A stretch of 64,000 nucleotides of DNA from Phycisphaeraceae bacterium (GTDB taxonomy: Bacteria; Planctomycetota; Phycisphaerae; Phycisphaerales; UBA1924). Every line of letters begins with the position of its first letter. Within the stretch, counting starts at the first letter, position 1. This document shows, one piece after another, positions 3,531-44,611 of this stretch. A model generated the notes under the pieces. The model ran no database searches. It saw only the letters and a program-made list of their open reading frames with translations, and was not told the DNA's origin. The stretch covers positions 1 through 64,000 of the forward strand of contig JAJTGZ010000009.1 of assembly GCA_021299385.1 (NCBI GenBank), written 5' to 3'. A program made the position numbers and the translations under genes.

Positions 3531-3601
3531 TGGCCGATGGTGTAACGGTAGCACAGCAGATTTTGGTTCTGCTTGTCCTGGTTCGAATCCAGGTCGGCCA
3601 G
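3531..3601 (+). tRNA. tRNA-Gln (anticodon UUG)
   Basis: The sequence folds as a cloverleaf. The 7-bp acceptor stem TGGCCGA (3531-3537) pairs with TCGGCCA (3594-3600), with G3601 as discriminator. The anticodon stem GCAGA/TCTGC (3556-3560, 3568-3572) encloses the 7-base loop TTTTGGT, which places TTG at positions 34-36. The T-arm carries GGTTCGAATCC. No CCA is encoded directly after the discriminator, so it must be added enzymatically. It lies 84 bases upstream of the glmU-prs fusion, on the same strand. Confidence 0.95.
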
Positions 3602-3685
3602 CTTTCTTTGCCCCCGCTCCCGCCCCTTCAGTTGGCCGTGTTTATCCGCTCGCGTTTGCTGATTGTCTCTGTCTGAGCCACACGC

Positions 3686-5506
3686 ATGCTTGTCTCCCCC
3701 AAACAGCTCGGCAAGCCCCCCGTCGCGGTCATCCTGGCCGCGGGCAAGGGGACGCGCATGAACAGCGACTTGCCCAAGGTCGTCCACGCCGTGGGCGACC
3801 GCCCGATGGTCTGCAACGTCGTCGATGCCTGCCGGGCAGCGGGCGCCAGGAGGATCATCCTGGTCGTCGGGTACAAGCAAGAGGTGGTGCGTGAGGCCGT
3901 CACCCGCCAGGGGCCGGCGTGGGCGCACGGGATCGAGTTTGCGGTGCAACAAGAGCAGCTGGGCACCGGTCACGCGGTGCTGGCGGCCAAGGAGGCCCTG
4001 GCCGATCTGCTGCAAACCCCGCAGCAGCCGTGCTTTGTGCTCGCTGGTGATGGGCCGCTGATCCGTAGCAAGACGCTGCGCACGCTGCTGGACCGGCACA
4101 ACGAGGCCTCGGCCTCCGCCACGCTTGCCACGAGCGTCATCCCCGACCCGACTGGCTACGGCCGGATCGTGCGCGATGACGCCGGGCGCTTTGTGGCGAT
4201 CGTCGAGCACAAAGAGTGCACGCCCGAGCAGCGTGCGTTGCAGGAGGTCAACCCGAGTTACTACTGCTTTGACCTGCACGAACTTTACAAGGGCTTGGCG
4301 CAGGTAGAGCGTAACGGCTCATCGGGTGAGTATTACATCACCGACGTGCCGAGCCTCTTTCTGCGGCAGGGCAAGCGCGTCGAGGTCATCGATGCCGTGC
4401 CCCCGCAGGACGTGCTGAGCATCAACACCCCTGCCCAACTGGCCGAGGTCGACGCGATCTACCGCGCCCAGGTGATCGACGCGCAGCGTGCCAGCCGGGA
4501 TGAGTCGCACTCGCTGCGTGTATTCTCCGGCCGGCGTGCGCTGGAACTGACCAACCGCGTCTGCGCCCACATCGGCGTGCCCATGGGCGTCGCACGCACC
4601 GAGCAGTTCCCCGACGGCGAACTGCTCGTACGCATCGAAGAGGACGTCCGCGGGCGCGACTGCTTTGTCGTCCTGGGCACAAGCCAGCCCGTCAACGACA
4701 ACCTCATCGAGCTGCTTGTCTTTACCGACTGCCTCCGCCGGGCCAGCGCAAAGCGCATCACGGCGGTGATGCCCTACTTCGGATACGCGCGCCAGGACCG
4801 CAAGGACGAGGGGCGCGTGCCAATCACAGCCAAGCTCGTTGCCAACCTCATGGCCGCGGCACGCATCGACCGCGTCATCACCGTTGACCTGCACGCGGCC
4901 CAAATCCAGGGGTTCTTCGATATCCCGCTGGACCACCTCTCCGCCACGCCGGTGTTTTACGACTACTTCATGTCGATGCGGCGTGAACTTGGCGACCTGG
5001 TCATGCTCAGCCCCGATGTCGGCAACGTCAAGGTCGCCGAGAGCTTTGCCAACATGCTCGGGGCGGAACTGGCGATCGTCAACAAACGCCGCATCTCAGG
5101 CTCGGAAGTTGTAACCGATCGGCTCATCGGCAGCGTGAGCAACAAGACGGTGCTGCTCTTTGACGACATGATCGCCACGGGTGGCACCGTGGCCCAGGCC
5201 GCGCAGCTGGCACGCCAGCACGGGGCCAGGCACGTCATCGCCGCGGCCACGCACGGCGTGCTGGCAGGCTCGGCGATCGAGAAACTCGCCGGCCCGGAGA
5301 TCGACCGCATCGTCATCACCAACACCATCCCCAGCAACACCGCCCTGCACCCGGGCGCCGACCCCGTCGCCGACCGCCTCGCACCGCTCCGGCACAAAAT
5401 TGTCGAGCTCGACGTGGCCGACCTGCTCGGCGAGGCGATCCACAGGATCAACAAGAACCTCTCGATCTCTGCTCTGTTTAAGAAAACAGCAGGAGCGAAA
5501 AGGTAA
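3686..5506 (+). CDS. Fused GlmU uridylyltransferase domain and ribose-phosphate pyrophosphokinase
   Basis: One uninterrupted 606-residue frame carries two enzymes. Residues about 12-265 form the GlmU nucleotidyltransferase: LAAGKGTRMNSDLPK near 17, QLGTGHAV near 91, AGDGPLI near 119 (the Asp that binds Mg in GlmU), GYGRIV and the EHK...QEVN segment. This domain makes UDP-GlcNAc from GlcNAc-1-phosphate for peptidoglycan, LPS and nucleotide-sugar synthesis. The left-handed beta-helix acetyltransferase domain of normal GlmU is absent. From about residue 275 to the end is a full PRPP synthetase, with FPDGE, PYFGYARQDRK, DLHAAQIQGFFDIP and the PRPP loop DDMIATGGT, making PRPP for nucleotide, His and Trp synthesis. 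L25/CTC and pth follow, which reproduces the B. subtilis glmU-prs-ctc-pth order. Both halves keep their key motifs, so both are probably active. Confidence 0.93.
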   Translation: MLVSPKQLGKPPVAVILAAGKGTRMNSDLPKVVHAVGDRPMVCNVVDACRAAGARRIILVVGYKQEVVREAVTRQGPAWAHGIEFAVQQEQLGTGHAVLAAKEALADLLQTPQQPCFVLAGDGPLIRSKTLRTLLDRHNEASASATLATSVIPDPTGYGRIVRDDAGRFVAIVEHKECTPEQRALQEVNPSYYCFDLHELYKGLAQVERNGSSGEYYITDVPSLFLRQGKRVEVIDAVPPQDVLSINTPAQLAEVDAIYRAQVIDAQRASRDESHSLRVFSGRRALELTNRVCAHIGVPMGVARTEQFPDGELLVRIEEDVRGRDCFVVLGTSQPVNDNLIELLVFTDCLRRASAKRITAVMPYFGYARQDRKDEGRVPITAKLVANLMAAARIDRVITVDLHAAQIQGFFDIPLDHLSATPVFYDYFMSMRRELGDLVMLSPDVGNVKVAESFANMLGAELAIVNKRRISGSEVVTDRLIGSVSNKTVLLFDDMIATGGTVAQAAQLARQHGARHVIAAATHGVLAGSAIEKLAGPEIDRIVITNTIPSNTALHPGADPVADRLAPLRHKIVELDVADLLGEAIHRINKNLSISALFKKTAGAKR

Positions 5507-5507
5507 G

Positions 5508-5548
5508 GAGAGGCAATCGGGAATAGGCAATGGGCAATAGGCGCGGCC
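5508..5548 (+). repeat. Dispersed AATAGGCAAT-type repeat, copy 1
   Basis: The repeat is built from variations of GGCAAT and GGAATAGG words directly after the glmU-prs stop codon. Its reverse complement matches copy 2 (5635-5670) and copy 3 (44573-44611) closely. Together with copy 2 it forms a long inverted repeat around a roughly 90-base spacer between glmU-prs and rplY, so the transcript could fold here. Confidence 0.75.
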
Positions 5549-5634
5549 GGTTGTGATCTGAGCCGGCGATTGCTCGAAGTCAAAGTCAAACACCAACCAA
5601 CCCAGCACACCAACCCACCACCACCCCAACCCAC

Positions 5635-5670
5635 CGCGCCTATTGCCCATTGCCTATTCCCTATTGCCCT
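5635..5670 (-). repeat. Dispersed AATAGGCAAT-type repeat, copy 2 (inverted)
   Basis: It reads GCGCCTATTGCCCATTGCC and onward, which is the reverse complement of copy 1. It ends about 58 bases before the rplY start codon. Seen directly in the sequence; function unknown. Confidence 0.75.
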
Positions 5671-5727
5671 TCCCCCGATCCCCTTTGCTCACTCCAACCC
5701 CACCCCCCCACTTCGAAAGGACCAACT

Positions 5728-6498
5728 ATGAAAAAAGGCCCCGTAACACTCAAAGCCACCCTCCGCCCCAAGCTCGGCTCGCGCTACGCCAAGCGTGCGC
5801 GTGAGAAGGGCCTGCTGCCCAGCGTTGTCTATGGGCACAAGCTCGACCCCGTCGCCATCGACATCGAGTCGCGCGAGGCCGTCAAGCACTTCATCGCCGG
5901 CGAGAAGGTCTTCACCCTGGACTTCCCAGGCCGGGACAACAGCGACGAGGGGCAGACCGTGCTGCTCAAGGCGTTGCAGTTTGACTACCTGGGCAACAAC
6001 ATCGTGCACGCGGACTTCGCCCGCGTGGACCTCAAAGAACGCGTCCGGACCAAGGTGCACGTGGAACTCAAGGGTGATGCCAAGGGCCTCAAGTCAGCCG
6101 GGGCGATCCTGATCCACCCGACCAACGAGATCATCATCGAGTGCCGGGTTATGGACATCCCCGAGTCGGTAACGATCGACGTGAGCAACCTTGACCTCAA
6201 CGAGGCGATCACGGCCGACAAGGTCGAGCTGCCCACGGCGGACATGAAACTGATCACCGACCCGCACGCGATCATCGCGCAGATCGTCGAGCAGAAGGAG
6301 ATCGTCGTGGCCGAGGCAGCGACCGTCGAGGGTGCCGCGGGCGTTGCGCCAGAGGTCATCGGCGAGAAGGAACGCGCGGAGAAGGCCGCCGCCGCCCCGG
6401 GCGCCAAGCCCGCCGCCGGTGCCGCTGGCAAGCCGGCCGCTGGTGCTGCCGCCAAGCCCGCCGCTGGTGCAGCCGCCAAGCCTGCCGCCAAGAAGTAA
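5728..6498 (+). CDS. rplY: 50S ribosomal protein L25 (general stress protein CTC type)
   Basis: This 256-residue protein matches the two-domain CTC/TL5 form of L25, which binds 5S rRNA in the large subunit. Residues about 1-92 are the 5S-binding beta-barrel, recognised by SRYAKRAREKGLLPSVVYG and the following region. Residues about 95-190 are the C-terminal TL5-like domain, including LIHPTNEIIIECRVMDIPE. The tail beyond residue 200 is an Ala/Pro/Lys/Gly repeat (KPAAGAA units), common as a basic extension in high-GC relatives. The ATG at 5728 is preceded by GAAAGGA at 5714-5720; an earlier in-frame start at 5650 would read through repeat sequence and is not favoured. The gene sits between glmU-prs and pth. 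Confidence 0.95.
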   Translation: MKKGPVTLKATLRPKLGSRYAKRAREKGLLPSVVYGHKLDPVAIDIESREAVKHFIAGEKVFTLDFPGRDNSDEGQTVLLKALQFDYLGNNIVHADFARVDLKERVRTKVHVELKGDAKGLKSAGAILIHPTNEIIIECRVMDIPESVTIDVSNLDLNEAITADKVELPTADMKLITDPHAIIAQIVEQKEIVVAEAATVEGAAGVAPEVIGEKERAEKAAAAPGAKPAAGAAGKPAAGAAAKPAAGAAAKPAAKK

Positions 6499-6560: not shown

Positions 6561-7178
6561 ATGCACCTGATCGTCGGCCTCGGCAACCCGGGCACGCAGT
6601 ACGAGCGCACCCGACACAACGCCGGGTTCATGGCCATCGACCGCGCCGCACGCGCTTTCGCCCCATCAGGCCCCTGGAGGCAACGCTTTGGCGCCGAGGT
6701 GCTCGAGGCAAGCATCCTCGGCGAGCGGGCGCTGCTCGTCAAGCCGATGCGATTTATGAACTGCTCGGGCCAGGCCGTCGCCGAGGCGCAGGCGTTCTAC
6801 AAGATCGACCGCCACCGCCTGCTCGTTGTCGTCGATGACTATGCGCTACCCCTGGGCCAACTCCGCCTGCGCCAGGCCGGCTCCAGCGGGGGGCACAACG
6901 GCCTACGCGACATCGAACGCGCACTGGGGGACCAGAGCTTCGCTCGCCTACGCCTGGGCATCGACCCCCCACCACCGCAATACGCCGACCCGGCCGACTG
7001 GGTCCTGGCACGCTTCTCAGACGCCGAGATTAAAGCCCTCGACCCCGCACTCGACCGCGTCAAGGACGCTATCGCCACGTTCATCAAACACGGCCTCCCC
7101 CACGCCATGAACCAGTTCAACGCCCCACCACCCACACCCAAACCCAAACCCCCAGCCAACCCCCCGGCCCCCTTTTGA
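6561..7178 (+). CDS. pth: Peptidyl-tRNA hydrolase
   Basis: It hydrolyses the ester bond of peptidyl-tRNAs that drop off ribosomes, recycling tRNA. The 205-residue length suits bacterial Pth. Visible motifs are VGLGNPGTQYERTRHNAGF at the N-terminus (with catalytic His20 in RHNAG), KPMRFMNCSGQAV near residue 60, VVVDDYALPLGQLRL near residue 90 and GSSGGHNGLRDI near 109. The tail is Pro/Lys-rich and probably disordered. It lies immediately downstream of the L25 gene in the widely conserved ctc-pth pair and converges on the kinase gene. Confidence 0.96.
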   Translation: MHLIVGLGNPGTQYERTRHNAGFMAIDRAARAFAPSGPWRQRFGAEVLEASILGERALLVKPMRFMNCSGQAVAEAQAFYKIDRHRLLVVVDDYALPLGQLRLRQAGSSGGHNGLRDIERALGDQSFARLRLGIDPPPPQYADPADWVLARFSDAEIKALDPALDRVKDAIATFIKHGLPHAMNQFNAPPPTPKPKPPANPPAPF

Positions 7179-44572: not shown

Positions 44573-44611
44573 CGCGCCGATTGCCGATTGCCTATTCCCG
44601 ATTGCCTCTCA
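44573..44611 (-). repeat. Dispersed AATAGGCAAT-type repeat, copy 3
   Basis: GCGCCGATTGCCGATTGCC, then TATTCCCGATTGCCTCTC. It matches the reverse complement of copy 1 (5508-5548) at all but a few positions. It touches the end of gspE. Confidence 0.8.

Follow-up and report, generated by a model that had tools for sequence, protein, structure and literature searches.

How have the uridylyltransferase of GlmU and a complete phosphoribosyl pyrophosphate (PRPP) synthetase, Prs, come to be encoded by a single reading frame, and does the joined protein do more than its parts? The question is raised by a Phycisphaeraceae bacterium (order Phycisphaerales; contig JAJTGZ010000009.1), of which a stretch of 64,000 nt, here called the window, was analysed. 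No description of a GlmU-Prs fusion was found in the literature searched; PMC8756737, a paper returned by that search, concerns nitrite reductase.

The fused gene and its product

The frame runs without interruption from the ATG at 3686 to the TAA at 5504–5506 (Table 1), and Pfam places NTP_transferase at residues 14–232 of the product, Pribosyltran_N at 278–392 (E 1.9e-47) and Pribosyl_synth at 480–599. The presence of both of the latter domains, together with an NCBIfam ribose-phosphate diphosphokinase match over residues 274–599 that scores 378 bits against a curated cut-off of 297, identifies the C-terminal part as a class I PRPP synthetase. The motifs YFGYARQDRK, DLHAAQIQGFFDIP, the KRR loop and DDMIATGGT are all intact in an alignment with Bacillus subtilis Prs, and the metal-binding, flexible-loop and PRPP-loop motifs are present when the Burkholderia enzyme is also included. 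The NCBIfam GlmU models match with their N-terminal half only, at residues 14–265. For the bifunctional GlmU model TIGR01173, positions 3–242 of 452 are covered (226.7 against a cut-off of 366.85), and the N-terminal uridylyltransferase domain is present with its motifs, which in an alignment with Streptococcus pneumoniae GlmU are GKGTRM..DLPKV, QLGTGHA, AGD (D122, equivalent to D102), GYGR, VEHK and N247 (equivalent to N227). The profile search did not detect the C-terminal left-handed beta-helix acetyltransferase domain of that family in the fusion. Hence, the open frame, the domain searches and the alignments agree with an earlier note on this DNA, which had described a GlmU uridylyltransferase and a full Prs in one frame with both sets of motifs intact.

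Table 1. Features of the fusion locus in the window
Feature	Position	Strand	Basis
tRNA-Gln (anticodon TTG), immediately preceding the fusion gene	3531..3602	+	ARAGORN
glmU-prs fusion gene, 606 aa	3686..5506	+	Single open frame; Pfam and NCBIfam domains; frame repeated in two congeneric genomes
GlcNAc-1-phosphate uridylyltransferase domain, GlmU type, residues 14–265, without left-handed beta-helix	3725..4480	+	TIGR01173; PDB GlmU alignments
Junction, predicted single helix, residues 249–276, continuing directly into the first strand of Prs	4430..4513	+	AlphaFold2
Class I PRPP synthetase domain, residues 275–606	4508..5503	+	NCBIfam PRK01259 over cut-off; PDB 3dah and 1dkr; Foldseek
rplY, ribosomal protein L25/Ctc	5725..6498	+	Pfam PF01386, PF14693
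pth, peptidyl-tRNA hydrolase	6561..7178	+	Pfam PF01195

In the genome that contains the window (95 % complete), neither a second prs nor a second canonical GlmU was found and, as the fusion is thus the sole source of both, both domains probably must work. Pairwise dN/dS among the three congeneric fused genes is 0.14–0.24 in both domains, and the fused frame is under purifying selection. The N-terminal domain is predicted to form UDP-GlcNAc from UTP and GlcNAc-1-phosphate and the C-terminal domain to form PRPP from ATP and ribose-5-phosphate; for these uncultured organisms, both activities are most likely present, as judged from sequence.

An AlphaFold2 model of the fusion consists of two well-predicted domains (mean pLDDT 86.7, pTM 0.66), and Foldseek searches with it returned Prs and GlmU structures, including the Prs of B. 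subtilis and Escherichia coli. Class I Prs is a hexamer, and the fusion is probably built on a Prs-type hexamer that carries six uridylyltransferase domains. The junction of an independent fusion from genus g16 (L154) was modelled as a broken helix and a low-confidence loop, again with a pTM of 0.66. At this value the relative orientation of the domains is not fixed in either model and, because the linkers of the two origins differ, no shared interface is evident.

The assembly that contains the window is a draft in 111 contigs, and the earlier note had allowed that the joined frame might be an artefact of assembly. An assembly or sequencing error is, in our estimation, vanishingly improbable, because the junction recurs in an identical arrangement in two independent assemblies from the same genus (L002 and L004; 83–84 % protein identity), a fused relative from another genus (G417, also L003) lies within a one-contig chromosome, and the junction evolves as coding sequence does.

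Gene neighbourhood

Pfam confirmed L25 and Pth downstream of the fusion and, with them, the Bacillus-like order glmU-prs-ctc-pth that had been recognized in the earlier note. The block tRNA-Gln(TTG) - glmU - prs - rplY - pth is common to fused and split loci, and the tRNA gene was found upstream of glmU-prs in all 24 of the Phycisphaerales loci scanned, fused and split alike. The same scan did not find it near L006 or L008, labelled Pirellulaceae and Planctomycetota, respectively.

Between the fusion gene and rplY lies an inverted repeat of 47 nt (5507–5553 and 5627–5673, 89 % complementary, 73 nt apart). Its core, CCTATTGCCCATTGCC, also occurs at 44577–44606 with up to 2 mismatches allowed (6 matches against 0.03 expected), and the repeat may be a small repeat element.

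Distribution of fused and split forms

The systematic part of the survey for fusions lay within the Planctomycetota. The same architecture was indeed found in other planctomycete genomes, as the earlier note had proposed to check, but in the order it is confined to 8 of the 400 genomes sampled, which belong to three genera (three in the window's genus, two in g268 and three in g16) of a single family, that of the window. Within the window's genus, the remaining genome of the four, G299 (L011), has separate glmU and prs genes. The earlier note had regarded two separate genes in close relatives as evidence against the fusion; such a relative exists, yet the fusion stands and is recent and local. 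In seven genomes (G183, G276, G312, G313, G315, G316 and G428) the two domains lie in one frame and are split by a single TAA or TAG, and in G654 a TGA lies within the joined match of both domains.

Long open frames upstream of prs were considered as additional fusions and rejected, as the regions themselves proved to be GC-rich open frames in which glmU either occupied a different frame or was cut off from prs by a stop. One contig labelled Chitinophaga pinensis (L063) carries a near-identical copy of the Phycisphaerales glmU-prs locus, and hence this record is probably mislabelled or contaminated.

Could the split relatives also make a joined product, by readthrough or frameshifting, so that fused and split forms differ little? 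The seven genomes with both domains in frame across a single stop are what this would predict, and one fused gene (L003:4001-5776) retains the old prs ATG and a Shine-Dalgarno-like AGGGAGG internally and may, therefore, also make Prs alone, so that both forms could come from one locus. Against this, prs in the in-frame split cases starts 3–18 nt past the stop, as ordinary neighbours do, and no conserved readthrough context was seen in them, and we consider such an equivalence very unlikely.

Ancestral overlap and route to fusion

Of the 121 distinct split loci, 88 have glmU and prs overlapping by 4 nt (66 ATGA, 16 GTGA and 6 TTGA) and six by 1 nt, and translational coupling usually takes the form of such overlaps (PMC10666635). 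In these overlapping relatives glmU is short and encodes the uridylyltransferase alone, and prs is in a different frame, so that fusion requires an indel that changes the frame. The earlier derivation of the fusion from adjacent genes is consistent with this, but its simple loss of a stop codon is, given the 88 loci that overlap out of frame, less likely than an indel at the overlap that shifted the frame.

The ancestor would have been a translationally coupled pair, in which a short uridylyltransferase-only glmU overlapped prs by 4 nt (ATGA) within the tRNA-Gln to pth block. An indel there, in the window's genus, would have united the frames and removed both the stop and the internal start; near the junction in this genus, no start codon inside the frame was found to have a suitably spaced Shine-Dalgarno-like site. 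With both removed, Prs would now be produced solely as the C-terminal portion of the joined protein, in a fixed 1 : 1 ratio. Other genera of the family appear to have gone through an equivalent step independently.

The number of such events was estimated from trees built on both domains together. Every bootstrap tree requires four changes to account for the fused state, and the starred branches alone force three. The fused genes do not form one clade in the bootstrap trees, and a tree in which they do was rejected by the AU test at a moderate p-AU of 0.017. Split relatives adjoin two of the fused lineages, G299 that of the window's genus and G428, with its in-frame stop, that of G416. The fusion thus probably arose three or four times, as far as these trees indicate, the exact count hanging on weak branches. 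Several separate fusions in one family can be accounted for by the fixed gene order and the usual 4-nt overlap.

The acetyltransferase step

The loss of the acetyltransferase domain had been attributed to the fusion itself in the earlier note. That attribution fails, as every genome sampled from the order already has a uridylyltransferase-only GlmU. In a phylum-wide sample of 195 genomes, 20 of them from the window's order, 87 have a full-length GlmU, and all 20 from the order fall below the cut-off for it; among the matches listed, the reach ends at about position 255 of 452. With regard to the missing ACETYLTRANSFERASE, we infer that the acetyl step had already passed to a different protein when the first fusion occurred.

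The protein most likely to have taken on this putative role is a separate alternative GlmU, TIGR03991 (alt_bact_glmU, a family with the status 'hypothetical equivalog'). The gene in the window's genome (G000:C33:24918-26129, L129) reaches 280 bits, above the cut-off of 225, and includes a beta-helix part. TIGR03991 is over the cut-off in 73 of the 195 genomes and, within the order, accompanies the short GlmU in every genome of the sample (over the cut-off in 19 of 20, the remaining one being interrupted by a contig end). It was found in 1 of the 79 listed genomes with full-length GlmU versus 72 of the 116 others, a comparison group that contains eight further full-length-GlmU genomes (Fisher p 3e-21, uncorrected for relatedness). 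Across the phylum, TIGR03991 and full-length GlmU are nearly mutually exclusive. LpxA, LpxD and a NeuD-like protein were dropped as candidates for the acetyltransferase in favour of TIGR03991, as was CysE, the last judged by eye only. GlmS is present in the window's genome, and the best GlmM match, a GlmM-like mutase, is below the family cut-off.

Given its annotation as a bifunctional enzyme and its presence alongside the short GlmU in every genome of the order in the phylum sample, TIGR03991 might make all of the UDP-GlcNAc, leaving the N-terminal domain of the fusion to act on another sugar-1-phosphate or as an accessory to Prs. This seems unlikely, since the domain scores 247 bits with GlmU models versus 66 with RmlA and its GlmU-specific motifs are intact, and transposon data from Planctopirus limnophila indicate that, in the GlmU of this planctomycete, the nucleotidyltransferase domain alone is essential (PMC10632474). 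The findings suggest instead that the roles of canonical GlmU are divided in this order, with UDP-GlcNAc formation falling to one gene and acetylation probably to a GlmU that looks unrelated, a division which could explain the single essential domain in Planctopirus.

Does the fusion couple two pathways?

Taken together, the evidence favours, with a probability of roughly 0.8, a bifunctional protein in which the chemistry of both enzymes is unchanged and their ratio is 1 : 1, derived from an ancestor with a 4-nt overlap by fusion that occurred repeatedly, with acetylation most likely performed by TIGR03991. It had been proposed in the earlier note that the fusion couples the synthesis of envelope precursors to that of nucleotides, and selection for such coupling, via channelling or shared regulation, might be read from the repeated fusion within one family and from the occurrence of glmU beside prs in distant bacteria. 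This is doubtful. The two reactions have no intermediate in common, which rules out direct channelling, most relatives have kept separate genes, and the linkers are unlike, a continuous helix in the window and a broken one in L154. Furthermore, where genes overlap by 4 nt, a single indel can easily fuse them by accident, and repetition of the fusion needs no selection.

A more speculative possibility, to which we give similarly little weight, is an order-wide complex of short GlmU and Prs, with the Prs hexamer serving as scaffold of the uridylyltransferase in place of the lost beta-helix trimer. Both overlap and fusion would then reflect selection for co-translational assembly at 1 : 1, and UDP-GlcNAc formation might come under control that responds to ADP and phosphate. 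Gene overlaps are enriched among the subunits of complexes (PMC10666635). The bifunctional fusion offers a natural experiment, with the same enzyme pair fused repeatedly in one family and split sisters available down to the level of genus, and the system can be used to test whether overlapping genes are a sign of co-assembling products, the view put forward in PMC10666635, or only ease fusion.

Comparison with known systems

The fusion combines known enzymes in a new architecture and stands out for having arisen repeatedly. With bacterial GlmU (TIGR01173) it shares the uridylyltransferase domain, its motifs and its place beside prs, but the C-terminal partner is Prs instead of the beta-helix acetyltransferase domain. 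The class I Prs (PRK01259/TIGR01251) is likewise a complete enzyme with all motifs, though its N-terminus, free in the known enzymes, is here joined to a nucleotidyltransferase. TIGR03991, the probable partner of the fusion for the acetyltransferase step, belongs to a non-canonical family, and its gene is unlinked and lies outside the fusion. In Bacillus, glmU, prs, ctc and pth are separate genes in that order. In Listeria, glmU-prs has been described as an operon (PMC8307235). The gene order of these clusters is that of the fusion locus, but in them the genes are separate and GlmU is of full length, whereas in the window the genes are joined and GlmU is short.
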